The notes under the pieces are model-generated. The model was not told the DNA's origin. It worked only from the letters and a program-made list of their open reading frames with translations, and did not search any database. From the NCBI GenBank assembly GCA_025056215.1, contig JANWWC010000003.1, positions 62,001 to 126,000 of the forward strand: DNA of 64,000 nucleotides, written 5' to 3'. Position numbers and translations under genes: made by a program. This stretch comes from Cytophagales bacterium (GTDB lineage: Bacteria > Bacteroidota > Bacteroidia > Cytophagales > Flammeovirgaceae). Positions 37,285-48,870 of the stretch are shown here, one piece after another (positions within the stretch are counted from its first letter, which is position 1; each line of letters starts with the position of its first letter).

Positions 37285-38691
37285 TCAGTGATGGTGTAAA
37301 GATTCTTCGAGCATAGGATGGTTCTTAGGAATAAGAGGCAGCTTTTGCAGTCCTTGAAATACGACGTATAAGAAAGCGCCTAAATATATCATTGCTAAAC
37401 CAATTTCTAATAAACCTAAATTTCCTGCATCTTTTAATGTACCAGGCGTAATCATCAGATAAAAATCCAACCAATGTCCGATGATGACTATCGTACAAAC
37501 AATTTTTAAAATACGCATTTTCCGTTTAGAGTCTCTTGTCATCAATCCTAAGAAAGGAAAAACAAAATTGAGAAAGATATTTAAGAAAAAGAGAGGTGCA
37601 TATTGGTCTCTGGATAACCTTTCAAAGAAATAAACAGTTTCTTCAGGAATATTAGCATAGTAAATAAGTAGAAACTGTGAGAACCAGATGTAAGTCCAAA
37701 AGATACTAAAACCAAATACGAATTTTCCTAGATCGTGAAGATGGGCTTCATTAACAAATTGCAAGTAGCCCCATTCTTTTAGATGAATAATTAACATTGT
37801 AATAAGAGCAACCCCTGTAACAAACCAACTTGCGAACACATACCAACCAAACATGGTAGAATACCAATGTGTATCGATGGACATGACCCAGTCCCACGCA
37901 GAAATAGCTGATGATATAGCAAAGAAGACAATAAAGAAAGCAGAAAAACGAACCAATCTCCGATAACGAACAGTACTTCCATTTTCTAAGTCTTCCTTTG
38001 CTGATTCACTTCTAAACACATAAGCGAAAAACAGCCATATACCAAAAAAAACTATCATTCTAAACAAGAAAAAAGGTATGTTTAAAAATCCTTTTTTTCC
38101 ATTAATGATAGGGTCATATTCAGGATTAGGGGTTACTCCATCGGCCAAGAATTTTTCATAAAGGTAATGATGTGTCCAGTGAAACAAATCGTGATGCGCT
38201 AAAAGAAAAACCCCTAGCATCATTACTGCCATGTAGGGAAGGAATCGACTCAAACTAATGATTACTCGAATAATCCCTGCAGACCAGCCAGCTGAAGCAA
38301 CATATTGTATTGCAAAGAAAAATATGCCTATCAATGAAATGCCTGTAAAAAATACATTGTTGAGCCACAAATTAGCATACAACCTCTGAAGCCAACCGAT
38401 AGCACCATGATGAGAACCATGTCCAGCGCCCTGCTCATTTTGAACAGGGTTTACTTCATGTCCGCCATTAATAGAAACTACTAAATTATCGGCATTTTCT
38501 ATTGAAGCATGATGATGCCCGCCACCTATCATACTCAAAATAAGTCCGATAACAAAAAGTACAATTCCAATTCCTAAAATGGTAAACACATCTTTCTTGA
38601 TTTTAGATGAGAATTCGAAGCGCTCATCCAAATTATAATGCACGTCGTGAGTGTCGTGCAAGTCGTGATGTTCATGTTGTGTAGATGCCAT
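37285..38691 (-). CDS. actF: Alternative complex III subunit ActF (NrfD-like membrane subunit)
   Basis: Integral membrane subunit of the quinol:cytochrome c / oxidase oxidoreductase ACIII, which replaces the bc1 complex in many Bacteroidota. 468 residues with about ten helices and an N-terminal and loop region rich in His (HEHHDLHDTHDVHYN at the start, GGGHHHASIEN and GHGSHHGAIG later). The sequence fits the ActF family seen after ActE. It follows actE by 35 bp and ends at a strong terminator. The usual downstream cox genes are absent here. Confidence 0.88.
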   Translation of the reverse strand: MASTQHEHHDLHDTHDVHYNLDERFEFSSKIKKDVFTILGIGIVLFVIGLILSMIGGGHHHASIENADNLVVSINGGHEVNPVQNEQGAGHGSHHGAIGWLQRLYANLWLNNVFFTGISLIGIFFFAIQYVASAGWSAGIIRVIISLSRFLPYMAVMMLGVFLLAHHDLFHWTHHYLYEKFLADGVTPNPEYDPIINGKKGFLNIPFFLFRMIVFFGIWLFFAYVFRSESAKEDLENGSTVRYRRLVRFSAFFIVFFAISSAISAWDWVMSIDTHWYSTMFGWYVFASWFVTGVALITMLIIHLKEWGYLQFVNEAHLHDLGKFVFGFSIFWTYIWFSQFLLIYYANIPEETVYFFERLSRDQYAPLFFLNIFLNFVFPFLGLMTRDSKRKMRILKIVCTIVIIGHWLDFYLMITPGTLKDAGNLGLLEIGLAMIYLGAFLYVVFQGLQKLPLIPKNHPMLEESLHHH

Positions 38692-40111: not shown

Positions 40112-41086
40112 CTAAATACTCAAAATATTCACAAGCTTAATCAGATCTGTATTTAAAGGTTTCTTTTTGCGAATAGCATCGCCGAAAGGAGTATAAACTA
40201 CTTTATCATTCACGATACCTGCCATTACACAAGCTCGCCCTTCGATGAGTCCTTCAACGGCTGCAAGTCCTAATCGGCTTCCTAGTAAGCGATCAATAGC
40301 AGTAGGTTTACCGCCTCGCTGGATATGTCCTAAATTGGTTACGCGAATGTCTAAGTAAGGCAACTTGGATTTTACATGCTCTGCAATAGTATGCGCGTTA
40401 CCGAGTTCTTCGCCTTCTGCAACAATCACAATAGAAGAAGAGCGTCTGGTGCTGCGTGTAGCTTGGGCAAGAGTTTCTACTACTCCCTCAAAAGTATCAG
40501 GGTTTTCTGGCACCATTACGATTTCAGCTCCTCCTCCAATTCCTGATTGAATTGCTATATACCCCGAATCTCTGCCCATAACTTCAATAAAAAATACTCG
40601 GTCATGCGAATCGGCAGTGTCGCGAATTTTATCGATGGCATCAAGAGCCGTGTTCACGGCTGTATCATAACCAAGTGTGTAATCCGTTCCGTAAAGGTCA
40701 TTATCAATTGTACCAGCTACTCCAACAGTAGGCACGCCGTATTCCTGATAAAAAATTTCTGCTCCCGTAAAAGAACCATTTCCTCCGATGCATACCAACC
40801 CGTCGATATGATGCGCTTTGATTTGTTGATAAGCCTTTTCGCGACCTACTTTCGTTCTGAATTCTTCCGAACGAGCAGACTTTAAAATAGTACCTCCTCT
40901 TTGAATGATGTTGCTTACCATCTTGGAGTCCATTTTGATAAAGTCGCCCTCTATCATGCCTTTATATCCTCGAATAATCCCGTACACTTCCAAACCATAA
41001 TAAATTCCTCCTCTCACAACTGCTCTGATACAGGCATTCATTCCTGGCGCATCTCCTCCTGATGTAAACACAGCGATTCGTTTCAT
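40112..41086 (-). CDS. pfkA: 6-phosphofructokinase (ATP-type by Gly104)
   Basis: Commits fructose-6-phosphate to glycolysis. 324 residues, standard bacterial length. TSGGDAPGMN at 8-17, the phosphoryl-transfer motif GTIDNDL with DTAVNTALDAIDKIRDTA (in part), MGRDSGYIA, and the sugar-site GHIQRGGKP are intact. Gly104 points to ATP and not pyrophosphate as donor. The residue before it is Asn103 (IGGNGSFTG) where E. coli PfkA has Asp103, a ligand region of Mg-ATP. Upstream is lptB; downstream actD. Confidence 0.93.
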   Translation of the reverse strand: MKRIAVFTSGGDAPGMNACIRAVVRGGIYYGLEVYGIIRGYKGMIEGDFIKMDSKMVSNIIQRGGTILKSARSEEFRTKVGREKAYQQIKAHHIDGLVCIGGNGSFTGAEIFYQEYGVPTVGVAGTIDNDLYGTDYTLGYDTAVNTALDAIDKIRDTADSHDRVFFIEVMGRDSGYIAIQSGIGGGAEIVMVPENPDTFEGVVETLAQATRSTRRSSSIVIVAEGEELGNAHTIAEHVKSKLPYLDIRVTNLGHIQRGGKPTAIDRLLGSRLGLAAVEGLIEGRACVMAGIVNDKVVYTPFGDAIRKKKPLNTDLIKLVNILSI

Positions 41087-41212
41087 AACTTTTGAGTTGT
41101 GGTTTGGCTGAATTTAACTTTTTTTTGATTTGTAAAAAAGAATTCTCAAAAACTTTCAGCAAAGAACAAAGAATACAGTTAAAAACACAAGAATTAAAGA
41201 TAAGTCTCTCGT

Positions 41213-41956
41213 TTAAACATTAAAAACTTTTCTTCTGAATTCGTACTGTCTGCCAAAATAACGAGCTTTCACTTCTTCGTCAGCTACCAATTCTTCAGGT
41301 ACTCCTTGCGCAAAAATTTGACCTTGAAATAAGATATACACTCTGTCCGTAATGGTGAGAGTTTCCGTTACGTTATGGTCGGTAATTAGTACACCGATAT
41401 TCTTTTTTTTAAGCTTAGCTACAATATGTTGGATTTCTTCTACAGCAATAGGGTCTACTCCTGCAAAAGGTTCATCTAACAACACAAATTGAGGATCGAT
41501 TGCTAGAGCGCGAGCTATTTCGGTTCTCCTTCGCTCCCCTCCAGAAAGAACCATTCCTAAATTTTTACGTACATGCGTAAGGCTGAATTCTTCCAAAAGC
41601 ATTTCTACGCGCTCCTTTTGTTGCTTTTTAGAGAGAGAAGTAAGCTCTAAGGGTGCTAAAATATTTTCTTCTACTGTTAGCTTGCGAAAAACAGAAGCTT
41701 CTTGAGCTAAATAACCGATTCCTTTTTGCGCTCTTTTAAACATAGGCAAATCGGTGATATCTTCCTCGTTTAAATAAATCCTCCCTGCATTCGGCTTAAT
41801 AAGGCCTACTATCATGTAAAAACAAGTAGTCTTGCCAGCGCCATTAGGACCTAGAAGTCCTACGATTTCACCTTGGCGAACCTCTACAGATACATCTTTG
41901 TTTACAAACCGATTTTTATATTTCTTGACTAACTTATCAGCGCGTAAAACTTTCAT
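41213..41956 (-). CDS. lptB: LPS export ABC transporter ATP-binding protein
   Basis: ATPase that powers LPS extraction by LptFG. 247 residues. Walker A GPNGAGKT (36-43), Q-loop near YLAQEASVF (82-90), signature LSGGE (137-141), Walker B FVLLDEP (157-163), H-loop H194 (ITDHNV). The text [18 protein letters not shown] is a good LptB marker. lptF/G are not in the window; lptC is 38 kb away. Confidence 0.95.
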
Positions 41957-42475
41957 TGAATTAGAAATCTATACAAAACTATATAGCTCCCCAAAAATCT
42001 CGCTACTTTTCATATAGAAAGTTTCCAAAAATCAAAAAAAATCTTAGAAACTGTTTAATACTCTTATGTCATTTTCAGCAACACAACCAGCACAATGTAC
42101 AAACGCCGTAGAGTTTGTTATTCTCTGTTTTATGCGATAAAAGCCCAGCGCAAACGTCCCTTTTAAATTAAAAACAGAAGGTTCTCTACGCTAACGCCGC
42201 TAAGGGTATTAAACACCCAACGCAAACATTAAATTCTTAAAGATGCTTGTTGAAAACGAGAATGGATGAGCTATCCCCCTGAGAACCAGATGACACTGTT
42301 AAATATTTTAGGGTTGAGATGGTAAAAATACGCTTAAAACTTTTTCAAATGATCGAAAATTTTTATATCACTATTATGAAAGAAATAAAAAGTCGAATAA
42401 ATTGACACTCAAAGCAAGAAATTGGAATGCGCTTACCTTAAAAACATAGAATTTAACTTTTGCTAAACTCAAAAT
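41957..42475. other. 519-bp gene-free gap between divergent lptB and the caspase-fold gene
   Basis: The longest non-coding stretch in the window. It contains a candidate structured RNA (42107-42190), a 14-bp near-direct repeat (42144-42157 CCCAGCGCAAACGT and 42216-42229 CCCAACGCAAACAT, 12 of 14 identical) and a TAGTTTTG box ~25 bp before lptB without a good partner box. TAACTTTTG near 42463 is a near-match to a -7 box for the caspase-fold gene. The part from 42300 to 42470 is AT-rich and I see nothing else there. Confidence 0.6.
42107..42190 (+). ncRNA. Candidate structured RNA (three nested stems)
   Basis: Stems read by eye: CGTAGAG (42107-42113) with CTCTACG (42184-42190); TCTGTTTT (42124-42131) with AAAACAGA (42171-42178); TAAAAG (42138-42143) with CTTTTA (42160-42165); and a small GCG-CAAA-CGT tip (42148-42157). 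They nest in order. It overlaps one copy of the near-direct repeat. The strand is arbitrary since the stems read both ways. No known RNA family was recognised, and chance pairing in AT-rich DNA is possible. Confidence 0.3.
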
Positions 42476-45400
42476 ATGATACTTAGATTTTTTTTTAGAT
42501 ACGCATGTATTAGTGCTCTGAGCATTTTTACGAGTATTTTGCGAGCTCAAACCGTCCGTATGTCTGAGCCTATCGTAGGTGATGGTTATTTTTCGCCTGA
42601 TGGAAGACATCTCATCAGCACTTCAGGGCAGATTTTTGACCTAAAAACAGGGAGAAACGCCGCCGACCTTAATTATTGTGGCACTGACCTAAACGGCTAT
42701 CCTACGATTTTCGATGCGGCGTGGTCTTCTTCAGGTAAATACGTTCTGTTCAACCGCCGCATTTTTGATGGAGAAACCTTAGAACAACGCTTCATTCTAC
42801 CTGAAAAGAAAAACCCTAAACGGCATTTCGCTCAGCATGAAAAGCATTTTTCTACCCTTAAACCCATGAATGCAGCGGCATTTTCGCCAGACGAAAAACA
42901 ACTTCTTGCAGGCGATGAAATCTTTGAGGTAGCTACTCAAAAACCCATCGCAACACTAAAGCCTCATCCGTACAAATCAGGTATGGCGTACCTACACTTT
43001 ATAAGTGATTTTTCCTACAACGTAAGATTTATCGACGTCAGTATAAAAGGGGATTTTCAACCTAATAATACGCATGTTCTCTCGCCTGACTTAAAATATT
43101 GTATTTCAGGGGAATCTCTCAAAAGTTCAAATTTTGCTTTTTTTACTCTTTCATTAGCCCGCGTACATGAGAGTTACGCTACTAACGAAAACAGAGCAGA
43201 GCACACTTACTATTTTACTGCGCAAACCAAACTTGCAGAAGACAAAATGGCATCTGGAAATTCTTTTTCTGATGACGATGTTGATTTTGCTGAAAACAAT
43301 CCTTTTGTCGCTATCCGAGATGAAAACACTGTGAAAGTATATGATCTTTCAAATAGCAAAATCATTTTTACAATAGAAGACTCTAAAAATAAAGAACTTA
43401 TCAAATTTAAACTTTCTCCATCTGGCAAATTATTATTATTATGTTATTTTAAAGAAGCCTTTGTATACGATGTGCAGAAGAAAAAGAAAATCTACGTACT
43501 TTTTGATGAAAAAAATAACCCTCAATACCAACGCCTCAACAATCCTTTTATTTCTCCTAATGAAAAATACGTCATCAATGGCGAAAATGGTAATATACTC
43601 GATATCAAAACGGGCAACCTTCTTGGAGTCATGATGTCTGTTGGTAAGGTATACAACGAATCGGCAACTCTCAATTCTGAGAACAAAACGGCTGTATTGC
43701 AGTATTCTGATGGCTCCTCGCGCATTTTTGATACAAACAGCGGCGACGAATTATTTGTTAATATTGTACAAAACCTCAATACGTTACTTTTTACAGCATC
43801 TTCTAACGGTAAATGGGTTGCTTCGTCGGATTGGGAAGGAAAACTCTCAGTTTGGGCCACCAATAACCCAAATACGCCGCTGAAAAGTTTCGCCCCGTAC
43901 GAAGGAAAACTCGTGACACAAATTCTTTTCGATACACTTCAAAACAGACTGATTATCAATGGAATGGACGGAACTATCAAAATATTTTCCTTACAAGATT
44001 TTACTCTCATTCATACTTTTACGACAAAAGAAAAAAACAACCGCTTGTTATTAGCAGGTACAGATATTCTGGCAATAAAACACGATGAAGTAAAAGTATA
44101 CAAACAAGATGGCACGCTTATCAATACACTGATTCTCAACATAAAACCTAACAACATAGCTATTTATCCACCTGCTCAACTGCTCTATTCCGACAAATCA
44201 CTCCGCAACTACTATAATGGCGCAAGAGTTCATAATTTTGTAGTGAATCGAAAAAAAGCAGAACTCTCCGATAAGAATAAATTTGTCAGCGGCGGGCAAT
44301 TTTACCCAGAGAAGTTATATACAATTACTACTAATCAAAAAATTTCTTTGTGGAATTTTGAAAACGGAAAAGTAGAAACGCTAAAGTTTCAGAACGAAAA
44401 TCCTGCTGTTACGAAAACGCATTTCGATTACGCGCTTCGGATCCCTACCTATGGAAAAGTATTAGGATATGGCGGTGCATATATCGATTTAAGTCGAAAT
44501 TCATACTGTTTCCCTTTTGCAGGAATTAACCAAGCTCTTTATAACGAATCTCCTACGAATATCGGGAATGATTATTTTGTGAGCAACGACGGTAAAAAAG
44601 TAGCTGTCTTAAACAATAAAAACAAAGCTAATATTTGGAATGCTTCGCTCTACGACAACACTCAAAATAAACTAATTGAAGAACTCAAACTTCCTAAAGG
44701 ATATAGCATGGATTTTACAGTCGTTTTTAGCTACACAGGCGATAGTCTTTTTGCACTCTTGCGCGGAAACTCTTATTCATTAGGAATTTTTGACACCCAA
44801 AAAGGCAATTTTTTAAAACTAGTAGACTTGCCCTTTGAGGGAAAAAATTTACTTATCTCTCCACTTGGCGACTGGATTTTAGCTTGCAAGGAAAAAAATT
44901 TTATTTTCTTTAATGTAAAATCAAACAGCAAAATTTGGGAAGGTGATCTTCCACTATCCAGTTATAAATATCAACTGTTAGCTTCAGCGAATGGCAGGTA
45001 TGTGGTTCTGCGCAATTTTAGTAACTACAAAGGTTCATCTGCTTGTATTTTAGATTTGCAAAGTAGAACTGTCAAATTAGTAGAAGACTTAGCCTTTTTT
45101 ACTTCTTTTACTGCAGATAGTAGGTATTTGGTCAGTGCTATGAAAGATACCAAAGCCGATTTAGACTATCTTATTTTCTATACGCTCCCAGATTTACAAG
45201 AAAAGAAACTCACAGCTCTGCAAATAGGAATCGATAATAGAGCCGTTTTCCTTACTCCCGAAAAATACTACATGGCTTCTAAGGCTTCTATACAAGATAT
45301 CCATTTTTCCATAGGAAAAAATACATATCTATTCGATCAATTTGATTTGCGTTTTAATCGCCCTGATATTGTGCTAGGGCAATTAGGATATGCCAGTCCT

Positions 45401-46657
45401 GAAATGATAGCTGTTTACAAAAAAGCGTGGGAAAAGCGTGTACGCAAAGCAGGCTTTGATCCTAAAGTGTTTGATGGACAAGCACTTACTATCAATACTC
45501 CTGAAGTAAAAATAGAAAAACCACTGCCGCTGACCACCTCAGAACCAACCGTGACAGTCAATTTTTCGGCGTTTGACAGCCAACAACCAATTAGTAAAGC
45601 ACAAATTTATATCAATGGAGTGCCCGTATTAGGGCGAGCAGGAATAGAGGTAAGCAACTCTAATCAAAAAACTAACAACCGCTATCAGGTCTCAATAAGT
45701 CAAAAAGTTGTTTTAACAAATGGAAAAAATGTTATAGAACTTTCTGCTATCAACCAGCAAGGGATTGAATCAGTGCGAGAGCGTCAAGAAATTACCTACA
45801 CACCTACCTCTACTACCAAACCTAACTTGTACGTAGTAGCAATTGGCGTTTCTGAGTTTTCGGACAATATCATGAATTTAACCTATGCTGCCAAAGATGC
45901 CGAAGACTTGGTAAACATCTTGAAAAGTAGAACAGACTTATACGAAAATATTTATGTTCAGTCCTTCATCAATTCCAAAGCCACTAAAGCGAATATTCTG
46001 AAGGCAAAAGCAGATTTATTGAACTCTAAGCCTGACGACAAAGTAATTGTTTTCGTAGCTTCACACGGGCTTTTAGATAAAAACTTAGACTATTTCATTG
46101 CTACTACCGACGTAGATTTCAATAATCCAAGCTTGAAAGGATTACCATATGAAGAATTAGAAAACTTGTTGGATGGCATTCCAGCGCGCCATAAACTGAT
46201 GCTTATAGACGCTTGCCACAGCGGAGAAGTAGATAAAGACGAGGAAAATGTGCCAAGATTTCAAAATCTGGCGAATGTGGCAGCAACAAGCGGCGGTGTA
46301 AAATCGCGCGGGTTTAAACCTACTGCATCAACCAGCAATGATTTGGCTTTAGATAATTTGTTTGAGCTAATGAAAGAACTTTTTGCAGACTTGCGCAAAG
46401 GTACAGGTGCGATAGTGATTTCTTCAGCTTCTGGCAAAGAATTTGCTTTCGAGAGCGAAGCCTGGAAAAATGGCGTATTTACGTATTCAGTATTAGAGGG
46501 CTTAAAATCGATGAAGGCAGACGCGAACCAAGATCAAAAAATCACGGTCTCTGAACTCCGCAGCTATGTAATCAAGCGAGTAACTGAACTCAGTGAGGGG
46601 AAACAACACCCAACAAGCCGCACAGAAAACTTGGAAAATGATTTTAAAATATGGTAG
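42476..46657 (+). CDS. Secreted beta-propeller protein with C-terminal caspase-fold (C14) peptidase domain
   Basis: 1393 residues. Signal peptide ~1-24 (FFFRYACISALSIFTSILRA). Residues ~30-1000 are WD40-type propeller repeats (FSPDGRHLISTSG, FSPDEKQLLAGDE, LSPSGKLLLLCYF, FISPNEKYVINGENG), probably two or more propellers. Residues ~1015-1105 form an Ig-like strand-rich linker (TVTVNFSAFDSQQPISKAQIYI in part). The caspase domain ~1113-1393 starts YVVAIGVSEF and has catalytic H1197 (VASHGLLD) and C1247 (LIDACHSGE), and a p10-like end with GAIVISSASGKEFAFES. Caspase-fold enzymes cut after Arg/Lys or Asp; specificity here is unknown. It stands alone, after the 519-bp gap. Confidence 0.9.
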   Translation: MILRFFFRYACISALSIFTSILRAQTVRMSEPIVGDGYFSPDGRHLISTSGQIFDLKTGRNAADLNYCGTDLNGYPTIFDAAWSSSGKYVLFNRRIFDGETLEQRFILPEKKNPKRHFAQHEKHFSTLKPMNAAAFSPDEKQLLAGDEIFEVATQKPIATLKPHPYKSGMAYLHFISDFSYNVRFIDVSIKGDFQPNNTHVLSPDLKYCISGESLKSSNFAFFTLSLARVHESYATNENRAEHTYYFTAQTKLAEDKMASGNSFSDDDVDFAENNPFVAIRDENTVKVYDLSNSKIIFTIEDSKNKELIKFKLSPSGKLLLLCYFKEAFVYDVQKKKKIYVLFDEKNNPQYQRLNNPFISPNEKYVINGENGNILDIKTGNLLGVMMSVGKVYNESATLNSENKTAVLQYSDGSSRIFDTNSGDELFVNIVQNLNTLLFTASSNGKWVASSDWEGKLSVWATNNPNTPLKSFAPYEGKLVTQILFDTLQNRLIINGMDGTIKIFSLQDFTLIHTFTTKEKNNRLLLAGTDILAIKHDEVKVYKQDGTLINTLILNIKPNNIAIYPPAQLLYSDKSLRNYYNGARVHNFVVNRKKAELSDKNKFVSGGQFYPEKLYTITTNQKISLWNFENGKVETLKFQNENPAVTKTHFDYALRIPTYGKVLGYGGAYIDLSRNSYCFPFAGINQALYNESPTNIGNDYFVSNDGKKVAVLNNKNKANIWNASLYDNTQNKLIEELKLPKGYSMDFTVVFSYTGDSLFALLRGNSYSLGIFDTQKGNFLKLVDLPFEGKNLLISPLGDWILACKEKNFIFFNVKSNSKIWEGDLPLSSYKYQLLASANGRYVVLRNFSNYKGSSACILDLQSRTVKLVEDLAFFTSFTADSRYLVSAMKDTKADLDYLIFYTLPDLQEKKLTALQIGIDNRAVFLTPEKYYMASKASIQDIHFSIGKNTYLFDQFDLRFNRPDIVLGQLGYASPEMIAVYKKAWEKRVRKAGFDPKVFDGQALTINTPEVKIEKPLPLTTSEPTVTVNFSAFDSQQPISKAQIYINGVPVLGRAGIEVSNSNQKTNNRYQVSISQKVVLTNGKNVIELSAINQQGIESVRERQEITYTPTSTTKPNLYVVAIGVSEFSDNIMNLTYAAKDAEDLVNILKSRTDLYENIYVQSFINSKATKANILKAKADLLNSKPDDKVIVFVASHGLLDKNLDYFIATTDVDFNNPSLKGLPYEELENLLDGIPARHKLMLIDACHSGEVDKDEENVPRFQNLANVAATSGGVKSRGFKPTASTSNDLALDNLFELMKELFADLRKGTGAIVISSASGKEFAFESEAWKNGVFTYSVLEGLKSMKADANQDQKITVSELRSYVIKRVTELSEGKQHPTSRTENLENDFKIW

Positions 46658-46686
46658 AAAGCACATTTTTTTCGCAGATTCTTTCC

Positions 46687-48870
46687 TTATTTTGGATTAA
46701 TAATTTCTAAATCGATTGTCCGCTTGTTAAGGTCTGTACCTTTGACACGCACCCAAACACGGTCTCCAATAGAAAACGTATTTTTATATTTTTGTCCTAT
46801 AACTTGCCTACTATCGCTATCGTAGTAATAGAAATCGTCTTTGAGACTATTGAGGCGCGCCATTCCCTCACACTTTGTTTCTATAATTTCTACATAAATT
46901 CCCCACTCAGTAGTGCCAGAAATGATGCCCTCAAACTCTCTTCCTATAAATTGTTGCATAAACTCGCACTGTTTGTACTTGATAGAGGCGCGTTCTGCTT
47001 CTGCAGCTCGCCTTTCCATATCAGAAGCATGCTTGCATTTAGGTTCGTAATCAGCTTTACTAACAGGTGCTCCTCCTTCTAGATAGTGTTGCAAAAGGCG
47101 ATGCGCCATTATATCTGGATAGCGCCTAATAGGTGATGTAAAGTGGGTATAATGCTTAAATCCTAACCCATAGTGTTTTAATGGTTCGGTAGTGTATTTG
47201 GCTTTTGCCATTGCTCGAATGGCTTGCGCTTCTATACTAGCCTGACAAGGATGTCCTTCAATTTGAGCGCTCAACATATTCAAAGCGCGAGCAATTTTTT
47301 CAGGATTTTCTGGATTGAATTCAAATCCGAATCTTTTTACAAACATAGAAAATTGCTGCACTTTCTCGGGATCAGGATCGTCGTGTGTTCGATACACAAA
47401 AGTAGCCAATTGTTTGCCTTTCTTTTTTTTATATACAAACTCAGCCACGTGTCGATTGGCTAACAACATAAATTCTTCGATCAGTTTGTGAGCATCTTTG
47501 CGCACCTTAGGAATAATACGCAAAGGTTTTCCGTGCTCATCGAGTTCAAAATAAAACTCTGGTGACTCAAAACCAATGGAACCCGCTTTGAAGCGTTTTT
47601 CTCGCAGTTTTCGAGCAAGTTGGTTGAGCGTTATTAGCTCTTCTGCCCATTCTCCTTGTTGGGTTTCTAGAACAGTTTGCGCCTCTTCGTAGGTAAATCT
47701 TTTTCGAGAACGAATAATCGTCCTACCGAACCATTCTGAAAGAACTTTCGCGTTTACATCAAGCTCAAAAACTGCTGAAAAAGTTAGCTTATCCTCCTCA
47801 GGACGCAAAGAGCAAAGCTCATTTGAGAGCTTTTCAGGTAGCATTGGAATTACTCTATCTACTAAATAAACTGATGTAGCACGTTGCTGAGCTTCTTTTT
47901 CTAAAAGAGAATCTGGTTTCACATAATAAGTAACATCTGCAATATGTATTCCTACTTCCCAATTCCCATTTTCTAAACGTCGAATTGATAAAGCATCATC
48001 AAAATCTTTAGCGTTGATAGGGTCGATAGTAAAAGTAGGAACGTTTCGAAAATCGCGCCTACGATTAATTTCTGCTTTGGGAATTTTAGAAGGAATTTTT
48101 TCAGCTGCTTTCTTTACTTCTTCAGGAAATTCCCATGGCAAGTTGTACTCTGCCATAATTGCGTGAATTTCTGCATCGTTATCGCCTACTTTTCCTAATA
48201 CTTTCACTACTTTTCCAATAGGATTTTTGTCTGTTTCTTGCCATCGAATCAGCTTTACAATCACTTTATCTCCATTCTGAGCTCCTTTGATGTGTTCTTT
48301 TGGGATATAAATATCGAAGTGCATCTTTTTAAGATCGGAAATTAGAAAAGCATATTGTCCTACAATTTGAAGCTCTCCTACAAAATCGGTACGCTTGCGT
48401 TCAATAATTTTTCTGACACTACCTTCTATTCTTTTAGGGGAAGAAGACGGAAGAATTTCTACTAATACGCGATCGCCATCTAAAGCGTGCTTCAGCCGAG
48501 AAGTAGGCACAAATATATCTGTTTCTTGTCCTTCCACTATTATGTAAGCATATTGAGGACTTACGTAATCTACTATACCTTCTACCAATTGTGGTTCAAG
48601 AAAATGACCGTACCGCCCTTGATATTGCGCAATTTGCTGGTGATTCACTAACTTTTTAAGACATGCTTTGAACTCTGATTTTTCTTTTCGGCTGCGCAAA
48701 TCGAAAGCCTTTATTAACTGCTGCAAACTGAAGATAGTTCCTTTTCGCTCTTGAAAGAAGTCAATAATAGATTGCTCTGAAAAACCAAGCGTGGGGGAAG
48801 CTTTCTGTTTTTTAGCAGACTTTGTTTTTTTTTCTTTTTGTTTTAGCGAACTCTTTAACTCGCGACCCAT
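46687..48870 (-). CDS. rnr: Ribonuclease R (3'-5' exoribonuclease)
   Basis: Processive RNase II/RNR family enzyme that degrades structured RNA. 727 residues: a basic N-terminus with helix-turn-helix-like region (~1-80), cold-shock domains (~85-235), RNB catalytic domain (~260-600) with the metal-binding TIDPINAKDFDDALSI and YLVDRVIPMLPEKLSNELCSL (in part), and C-terminal S1 domain (~640-727) with FEGIISGTTEWGIYVEI. Aspartates of the catalytic motif are present. Ends 29 bp from the convergent caspase-fold gene. Confidence 0.96.
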   Translation of the reverse strand: MGRELKSSLKQKEKKTKSAKKQKASPTLGFSEQSIIDFFQERKGTIFSLQQLIKAFDLRSRKEKSEFKACLKKLVNHQQIAQYQGRYGHFLEPQLVEGIVDYVSPQYAYIIVEGQETDIFVPTSRLKHALDGDRVLVEILPSSSPKRIEGSVRKIIERKRTDFVGELQIVGQYAFLISDLKKMHFDIYIPKEHIKGAQNGDKVIVKLIRWQETDKNPIGKVVKVLGKVGDNDAEIHAIMAEYNLPWEFPEEVKKAAEKIPSKIPKAEINRRRDFRNVPTFTIDPINAKDFDDALSIRRLENGNWEVGIHIADVTYYVKPDSLLEKEAQQRATSVYLVDRVIPMLPEKLSNELCSLRPEEDKLTFSAVFELDVNAKVLSEWFGRTIIRSRKRFTYEEAQTVLETQQGEWAEELITLNQLARKLREKRFKAGSIGFESPEFYFELDEHGKPLRIIPKVRKDAHKLIEEFMLLANRHVAEFVYKKKKGKQLATFVYRTHDDPDPEKVQQFSMFVKRFGFEFNPENPEKIARALNMLSAQIEGHPCQASIEAQAIRAMAKAKYTTEPLKHYGLGFKHYTHFTSPIRRYPDIMAHRLLQHYLEGGAPVSKADYEPKCKHASDMERRAAEAERASIKYKQCEFMQQFIGREFEGIISGTTEWGIYVEIIETKCEGMARLNSLKDDFYYYDSDSRQVIGQKYKNTFSIGDRVWVRVKGTDLNKRTIDLEIINPK

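Follow-up and report, generated by a model that had tools for sequence, protein, structure and literature searches.

An exported bacterial protein that unites WD40 propellers with a complete caspase-like protease

Results and discussion

The gene, its relatives and the export signal

The window analyzed here, a 64,000-nucleotide stretch from a Cytophagales bacterium, contains at positions 42476-46657 of the forward (+) strand a gene that codes for an exported protein of 1393 residues, which unites WD40 propellers with a complete caspase-like protease (open reading frame, translation and Pfam). The ORF map and translation bear out the original prediction in its reading frame, length, strand and coordinates. 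The export signal, domain order, fold, catalytic dyad, acidic pocket residues, basic loop residue and EF-hand-type loop were all computed directly. We excluded a chance open reading frame on the basis of the Pfam matches and 340 related stretches, which were confirmed as coding relatives in a scan of 84,980 genomes (one genome per species). The best 79 of these 340 loci, mostly from Bacteroidota, were taken further, and residue counts refer to an alignment of 93 rows; many rows of the alignment and the tree come from metagenome bins and may be mislabelled. Judged by sequence similarity, the protein belongs to a widespread bacterial family. The distribution is patchy: of 395 genomes in the phylum, 3 gave hits at E 1e-60, one being the window's own. 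With so strict a threshold, this count is a minimum for relatives in a wider sense. A contig search with the single WD40-caspase protein as query found no relative, and the position of the window protein in a tree of 77 rows, made by a quick method, lacks starred support.

The N-terminus (residues 1-24; 42476..42547, +) reads as a Sec signal peptide, MILRFFFRYACISALSIFTSILRA, with signal peptidase I cleavage between A24 and Q25 and a mature chain that begins QTV. This assignment relies on the sequence, on a hydrophobicity rule rather than SignalP, and on the Q-rule, described as a Gln following signal peptide cleavage in Bacteroidota (PMC5837995). By the same hydrophobicity rule, a signal-peptide-like start is found in 58 of the 66 relatives with a complete 5' end in one set and in 20/20 of a second, and a Q-rule signal peptide in 51 of 66 and 19 of 20, respectively. 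Export had been proposed from the sequence at the outset, with a failing signal peptide prediction named beforehand as its refutation; by this rule the prediction holds, for the protein and for most of its relatives. The chain ends with the caspase fold and lacks a T9SS C-terminal sorting domain: TIGR04183 did not match the protein at E 0.001, at which only NF047832 matched, and none of the 36 T9SS-tail matches in its own genome falls at this locus. T9SS export was rejected. As the genome encodes many proteins with a type IX domain and this one has none, the protein probably stays in the periplasm, its most likely location.

WD40 propellers and linker

Repeats extend from residue 25 to about 925, over some 900 residues; their presence had been recognized correctly, and their extent is somewhat less than the roughly 1000 residues first suggested. 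Propeller A (residues 302-630; 43379..44365, +) is seven-bladed in the AlphaFold2 model and aligns with RbBP5 (6w5n_A; VIA-align Z 28.7, rmsd 2.6, 283 residues), and Pfam WD40-type families match around residues 245-646 (PF00400, WD40, 33.8 bits versus a cut-off of 27). Propeller B (residues about 640-925; 44393..45250, +) is predicted from the strand pattern of the model and from its hhalign match to propeller A (99.9%). The model thus predicts two propellers, and the WD40-like repeats at residues 25-300 (42548..43375, +) probably form a third, as residues 24-300 align to the later propellers with a best hhalign probability of 97.2%, mainly over residues 34-215. The structure model comprises 1104 residues, leaving out the N-terminal 300, and structure searches with it gave matches dominated by the propellers. 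Among relatives, the repeat part varies in length and the protease part stays conserved; the alignment of the best-scoring relative begins only at residue 330.

The propellers are followed by a conserved helical linker (residues 926-1003; 45251..45484, +), defined by the alignment and the model helices, with the signature QFDxxxNRPDxVL, in which R962 and P963 are kept in 93/93 rows and N961 and D957 in 91/93. Next comes an Ig-like segment (residues about 1009-1110; 45500..45805, +), a run of beta strands modelled with high pLDDT and called Ig-like from the strand pattern only. An 'Ig-like linker' had been foreseen at this place.

A complete caspase-like protease domain

The caspase domain (C14) covers residues 1116-1393 (45821..46654, +), as defined by Pfam and VIA-align. 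Peptidase_C14 (PF00656) matches residues 1121-1390 (8.2e-15, 55.6 bits versus a cut-off of 21.4), and NCBIfam NF047832 (caspase, EACC1-associated type) scores 76.1 bits, under its curated cut-off of 140. The model (pLDDT 86.6) adopts a caspase fold, with Z values of 18.5 to 21.6 among the 50 matches listed, led by metacaspase-4 (6w8r_A; Z 21.6, 236 residues, rmsd 3.8), GSU0716 (21.1), metacaspase-9 (20.6) and MALT1 (19.7). Structural alignments to metacaspases extend to the final residue, so p10-like elements seem to be present, whose absence defines an orthocaspase in the sense of Klemencic and Funk; the fold closes with a tail conserved in the sequence alignment (residues 1375-1393; 46598..46654, +), in which Q1377 and R1382 are kept in 91/93 rows. 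The His-Cys dyad is intact, with H1197 (46064..46066, +) and C1247 (46214..46216, +) at the positions originally assigned to them. Each is kept in 92/93 rows, the Cys also in 28/29 loci without the Cys search pattern, so relatives do not commonly lack the dyad, the finding that was to count against the original prediction. The idea that the family consists as a rule of inactive caspases was therefore rejected; the lone exception, locus L088, appears to be misread, in a frame that misses the domain.

Both acidic S1 residues of Arg/Lys-specific metacaspases are present as predicted pocket residues: D1141 (45896..45898, +; 92/93), which aligns with the Asp of the AtMC4 LRGCxND motif, and D1245 (46208..46210, +; 93/93), two positions before the catalytic Cys. 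They match two Asp of TbMC2 that are described as highly important for basic substrates (PMC6426788), and we counted this match for Arg/Lys specificity. Together with the basic residue of the post-Cys loop and the EF-hand-type loop, they went unnoticed in the original prediction and give a hint of the protein's mode of action. The pocket Cys (Cys92 of TbMC2) is replaced by A1138, with Ala in 77/93 rows; this Cys is not required for C14 membership. We counted the replacement against an Arg/Lys metacaspase reading, as mutating the metacaspase pocket Cys is described to lower activity strongly (PMC5756287). Overall, the pocket residues make cleavage with Arg or Lys at P1 the likeliest specificity.

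The catalytic Cys is followed by a low-confidence loop (residues 1256-1291; 46241..46348, +; pLDDT <50 over much of it) that contains R1278 (46307..46309, +), the predicted P1 of a self-cleavage site. This column is basic in 79/93 rows (70 Arg and 9 Lys), of which 76 continue with G, A or S; from 1255 to 1295, no other column is basic in more than 45 rows. A loop of ~49 residues will often contain K or R followed by G, A or S by chance alone. What carries information is therefore the constancy of the position, to which an aligner's preference for stacking basic residues may contribute. The 14/93 rows without a basic residue here speak against self-cleavage. The K1254 column, at the very start of the loop, is basic in 74/93 rows and, being mostly followed by Asp or Glu, was read as probably structural, yet it is a rival candidate for the cleavage site. 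The resemblance of R1278 to a self-cleavage site is a hint.

A 12-residue EF-hand-type calcium loop, DANQDQKITVSE, lies at residues 1349-1360 (46520..46555, +), with flanking helices on both sides in the model. The pattern is kept in 85/93 rows; of the 8 rows without it, four belong to one genus and two (L088 and L128) are misread or have a broken frame. Pfam matches the EF-hand family weakly, at an E of 0.062 and below the cut-off. Ca2+ dependence is described for plant and algal metacaspases of types I-III, and autoprocessing for an orthocaspase, whereas the same review argues against a need for Ca2+ by proposing calcium-free activation of orthocaspases (PMC5756287). With the predicted loop in place, assistance of the protease by Ca2+ appears likeliest.

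Genomic neighbourhood

The gene lies downstream of the largest intergenic gap of the window (41957..42475; 519 bases, the next being 281, in a mechanical ORF map). The size of this gap had been noted and taken to argue for the gene's own regulation. The gap separates divergent genes, lptB (-) and the WD40-caspase gene (+), and must serve both, so it says little about special regulation. Inverted repeats in the gap look incidental, and no Rfam family reached the gathering threshold in 41000-47000. Pfam and NCBIfam assign the scanned neighbours (lptB, pfkA, ActD, RNase R and others) to housekeeping and detect no defence genes among them; judged from these neighbours, a defence island is unlikely.

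That the gene stands alone, as first remarked, is true of the window but not of all relatives: among the 80 with a readable start, 20 have a same-strand gene ending <=60 bases upstream. At least 14 of these 20 coupled genes look exported (14/20 versus 199/643 other neighbours; Fisher p 0.0009, for loci that are not independent), and in front of a paralogue from the window's own genome (L048), at a distance of 9 bases, lies an exported-looking gene of 500 aa. The coupled neighbours fall into several unrelated families. As candidates for a conserved partner gene we rejected the two largest neighbour clusters: WD40/caspase ORFs at 20/93 loci, some of which are fragments of one gene, and a TPR/response-regulator cluster built by chaining (17/93), which includes the window's regulator 6 kb off.

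Proposed mechanism and alternatives

We think it somewhat probable that the protein is an exported, most likely periplasmic, C14 protease that acts as an Arg/Lys-specific, Ca2+-assisted, self-cleaving zymogen gated by its propellers. Sec would export the protein, signal peptidase I would cut between A24 and Q25, and the chain would stay in the periplasm and fold as a zymogen. Ca2+ bound to the EF-hand-type loop would steady the C-terminal part of the catalytic domain, and a cut after R1278, made by the protein itself or by a neighbouring copy, would free the post-Cys loop and switch on the protease, which would then cleave with Arg or Lys at P1. The propellers, acting through the NRPD linker and the Ig-like segment, would bind a target or trigger and bring it to the protease; as first suggested, they may recognize substrate or cover the active site. 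The excess of exported-looking genes among the coupled upstream neighbours of relatives also counts for this reading. Its inferred parts are periplasmic residence, the need for Ca2+, self-cleavage, Arg/Lys specificity and propeller gating.

The coupling to exported-looking genes, also seen in the paralogue, would suit a dedicated protease with a housekeeping role in the maturation or release of other exported proteins, frequently the products of adjacent genes; we hold this to be unlikely, as the coupled genes come from several unrelated families and the gene in the window lacks a partner of this kind. Protease and tandem propellers in one chain also recall a single-chain analogue of the WD40-gated apoptosome, in which the propellers would sense an envelope threat (phage, toxin or damage) and turn the protease against envelope proteins of the cell itself. 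Apaf-1 (3shf) is indeed among the structural matches to the tandem propellers (Z 26.4), but the rmsd of 15.9 shows that the packing of the two propellers differs from that in Apaf-1. PADLOC, run on the WD40-caspase protein alone, matches only its caspase model (residues 1116-1342, 3.7e-9), which is confined to the shared caspase domain; the patchy distribution and the variable repeats beside a conserved protease part also fit a sensor but are not specific to defence, and the scanned neighbours include no defence genes. We therefore regard a sensor or defence effector as distinctly unlikely. A caspase domain that does not cleave and instead binds or scaffolds is highly improbable: pseudo-orthocaspases exist and the usual pocket Cys is Ala here, but the dyad is kept in 92/93 rows together with both pocket Asp, and the pseudo-variants described amount to merely 10 of 1078 Bacteroidetes sequences (PMC6426788).

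A bolder, rather unlikely extension of the propeller-gated zymogen is a family, so far undescribed, of exported metacaspases that are Arg-specific, cleave themselves, are gated by Ca2+ and have a WD40 sensor in the same chain, a periplasmic 'apoptosome' that would guard or remodel the envelope. Prokaryotic caspase homologues are mostly treated in terms of cell death and immunity. A widespread exported branch that has its own linker, together with a calcium-type loop and a site predicted to serve activation, would bring caspase-type switching into the bacterial envelope, a compartment rich in Ca2+ and devoid of ATP. The residues C1247, R1278, D1349/E1360 and D1245 offer precise positions for testing.

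Relation to known systems

In the open-licence literature we found no paper on caspases, metacaspases or orthocaspases described as periplasmic, secreted or extracellular, and among the matches listed no title on the WD40-caspase family. A survey of 2012 had nevertheless already covered fusions of WD40 with caspase domains and noted candidate signal peptides on caspase homologues: it reported WD40 in 73 of 671 prokaryotic metacaspases and assigned 98 sequences to a membrane category, most of them having an N-terminal helix that may be a signal peptide (PMC3501461). The presentation of an exported caspase homologue as an anomaly was thus overstated. Our protein resembles these WD40 metacaspases or orthocaspases in carrying C14 and WD40 in one chain. 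Propellers before the protease, the NRPD linker, Ig-like segment, EF-hand-type loop and basic loop residue set it apart, although single members of the 2012 set may belong to the same branch. The extra domains of orthocaspases are described in a 2017 review as commonly C-terminal (PMC5756287). Among archaeal orthocaspases, an EF-hand motif (7 proteins) and an N-terminal Ig-like Big_7 domain (15 proteins) are described, which recall the predicted loop and the Ig-like segment here; these proteins are archaeal, and their description does not mention propellers (PMC6426788).

The closest structural likeness is to AtMC4, with the highest VIA-align Z (21.6), two acidic pocket residues and a Ca2+ theme, but AtMC4 has the pocket Cys where our protein has Ala, is cytosolic and is not known to have propellers. 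MALT1, the first Foldseek match, shares the caspase fold (VIA-align Z 19.7), is Arg-specific and has a neighbouring Ig domain, which follows the protease, whereas the Ig-like segment precedes it here; MALT1 is not known to carry a propeller or to be exported. The gingipains, which are Arg/Lys-specific, and PorU (C25) are exported caspase-fold proteases of Bacteroidota, but belong to another peptidase family, carry a T9SS C-terminal domain and are not known to have a WD40 propeller. GSU0716 of Geobacter sulfurreducens (3bij) provides a bacterial caspase fold at Z 21.1, in a solved chain of ~265 residues without a propeller.

Domain architecture and predicted structure

The open frame at window 42476-46657 (+) encodes 1393 residues, in which several Pfam WD40 models precede Peptidase_C14 (residues 1121-1390, 8.2e-15), and the catalytic His1197 and Cys1247 named in the original prediction are both found at these positions. 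The 60 matches listed by a whole-chain PDB sequence search are WD40-type proteins, such as WDR5. We modeled residues 290-1393 with 52 relatives in the alignment (pLDDT 76.0, pTM 0.70) and residues 926-1393 with 76 relatives (pLDDT 86.6, pTM 0.88). The longer model, numbered from residue 290 of the protein, shows 54 strands (counted by hand) by model residue 637, a number consistent with two seven-bladed propellers; its residues 13-341 resemble RbBP5-type WD40 propellers with Z 28.7. Residues 24-300 probably hold a third, since this segment can be aligned to the later propellers in several registers, with a probability of up to 97.2%. For the shorter model, the top structural matches were metacaspase-4 (Z 21.6), GSU0716 (21.1), and metacaspase-9 (20.6), in a tie to within about 1, followed by MALT1 (19.7), which was the top Foldseek match (5.1e-10); a profile search by sequence alone returned both metacaspase-4 (E 0.0031) and GSU0716 (E 0.022). 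Structural alignments extend through the last residue, so the C-terminal tail belongs to the caspase fold.

Family distribution and export-like starts

At 1e-5, the protein has matches in 36 of the 58 genomes searched, its own included. Its closest relatives share 34 to 43% identity with it over residues ~921-1393; the repeats have diverged. A profile scan of genome contigs (one genome per species, 84,980 species) gave 398 candidate stretches, 340 of them relatives, and the best 80 (79 loci) were used for detailed comparison. Of 76 of these placed in a tree, 60 carry the label Bacteroidota, six Nitrospirota (one branch), two each Chlorobiota and Myxococcota, and five other phyla are represented by one row each. 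In a phylum-wide draw, the branch of the window protein was present in 3 of 395 genomes at 1e-60 (its own included), which shows that it is patchy across the phylum. Among the 67 relatives whose 5' end is complete, a set that takes in L088 and a few broken frames, stop-to-stop length ranges from the 600s to 1938 and is most commonly 1100 to 1199 (35 of 67); the window protein is ~265 residues longer at the N-terminus than L036, the best-scoring full-length relative. The genome of the window protein encodes two further exported WD40-caspase paralogues, L048 (1100 aa, C9:8729) and L049 (1075 aa, C9:403395), and an export-like 500-aa gene lies 9 bases upstream of L048.

By sequence, residues 1-24 read as a Sec signal peptide ending at A|Q, and in Bacteroidota signal peptidase I is reported to expose a Gln that becomes pyroglutamate, the Q-rule (PMC5837995). 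When a simple rule based on hydrophobicity is applied, an export-like start is seen in 58 of the 66 relatives whose 5' end is complete (L088 excluded), 51 of them with the Q, and in all 20 of a second relative set (Q in 19). Four of the eight failures (L059, L062, L077, and L100) show, by eye, a signal-like sequence 5' of the first Met. For comparison, 11 of the 41 other ORFs of the window satisfy the rule (Q in 5); they were tested at their own start, more strictly than the relatives, for which any Met within 120 residues was accepted. The genome (2.83 Mb) holds 36 T9SS-tail matches over the cut-off and the window protein ends in the caspase fold without such a tail; residence in the periplasm is therefore the better guess.

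Conservation of the catalytic site and loops

We aligned the window protein with 13 close relatives and the 79 loci (93 rows). H1197 and C1247 are each present in 92 rows, the sole exception being L088, a frame that misses the domain. The catalytic Cys was part of one of two search patterns, and we therefore counted loci lacking that pattern separately: 28 of 29 have both dyad residues. The dyad is also present in all 20 BLAST-found relatives, aligned separately. D1245 occurs in 93 rows and D1141 in 92; L050, a BLAST-found relative, has Asn at the D1245 position. By the alignment with AtMC4 and the DxCHSG motif, D1141 and D1245 are equivalent to two Asp that are reported to matter greatly for the basic substrates of TbMC2 (PMC6426788). 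Where metacaspases have a pocket Cys, the window protein has Ala, which counts against a fully standard pocket. In the tail, Q1377 and R1382 are each found in 91 rows.

The loop that leads from the catalytic Cys to the next strand is largely disordered in the models, with a short predicted strand (1275-1277) directly before R1278. A basic residue occupies column 1278 in 79 of 93 rows (R 70, K 9), and in 76 of the 79 the residue after it is Gly, Ala, or Ser; the runner-up basic column within 1255-1295 reaches 45 rows. Among the 14 rows without a basic 1278, several have, by eye, K/R before S/A/G about two residues on. K1254, at the very start of the loop, is basic in 74 rows, mostly followed by Asp or Glu. 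R1278 is a putative self-cleavage site, its surroundings being as one would expect where an Arg/Lys-specific protease cuts itself; in the seven more distant of the BLAST-found relatives the loop is short or missing. An EF-hand-type loop at residues 1349-1360 is conserved in 85 rows. Archaeal orthocaspases are reported with an EF-hand motif (7) or an N-terminal Ig-like domain (15) (PMC6426788), so neither pairing is without precedent. A Ca2+ switch in the window protein would be at odds with a review that proposes calcium-independence for orthocaspases (PMC5756287).

Proposed mechanism and genomic context

The best-supported reading, towards which we lean slightly, is that the protein would be a periplasmic zymogen with specificity for Arg/Lys, which Ca2+ assists and a cut at R1278 activates, its WD40 propellers serving as a targeting or trigger part; export and protease activity are better supported than the calcium and gating steps taken alone. 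A rival reading, an inactive scaffold, has to be set beside both the retained dyad and the altered pocket. A defence or death sensor would be another, to be read beside the patchy distribution and the surroundings of the window gene, which are ordinary: divergent lptB on the left, with pfkA and ActD beyond, and convergent RNase R on the right. As originally predicted, no other gap in the window is as large, by the ORF map, as the 519 bases before the gene, but this region is divergent, between lptB and the window gene, and an Rfam search of it returned no family. Beside ActD and a cytochrome c, a 468-aa protein (window 37285-38691 (-)) matched neither Pfam nor NCBIfam at E 0.001.

Alternatively, the protease might process co-encoded exported proteins. 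Among the 80 loci whose start could be read, 20 have a same-strand gene within 60 bases upstream; 14 of those genes are export-like vs 199 of 643 other neighbor ORFs (Fisher p 0.0009, the loci not being independent). This supports export of the caspase protein and hints at partner substrates. The coupled genes are of several kinds, including a ~350-aa lipoprotein family (VWA-like by eye; a Pfam search with the L064 member gave no match), a PepSY-like lipoprotein (L093), an ankyrin protein (L107), and an LRR protein (L129). We found no conserved single partner among the relatives' neighbors; proteins related to the DUF6770 protein of L089 lie beside the caspase gene at 5 of 93 loci. A 2012 survey reports WD40 as the domain shared by the largest number of metacaspases (73/671) and also notes possible signal peptides (PMC3501461). 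In open-licence literature, no title among the matches listed concerned an exported WD40-caspase branch, and a phrase search for periplasmic, secreted, or extracellular caspases, metacaspases, or orthocaspases found nothing. As far as the matches listed show, the definition of this exported branch, with its linker, its EF-hand-type loop, and its conserved basic loop residue, is new.

The ~350-aa lipoprotein gene is upstream of the caspase gene in L059, L063, L064, L068, L076, and L087, with a spacing of 4 to 12 bases in L063, L064, L068, and L076. At up to 20 of 93 loci (including L073, L082, L110, L114, L123, and L134), the first WD40 or caspase ORF has another such ORF nearby, in some cases a piece of the same gene. 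At L082, a 1158-aa protein (L082:9396-12872 (-)), encoded 16 bases downstream and convergent to the caspase gene, has a STAND NTPase-like start by eye.
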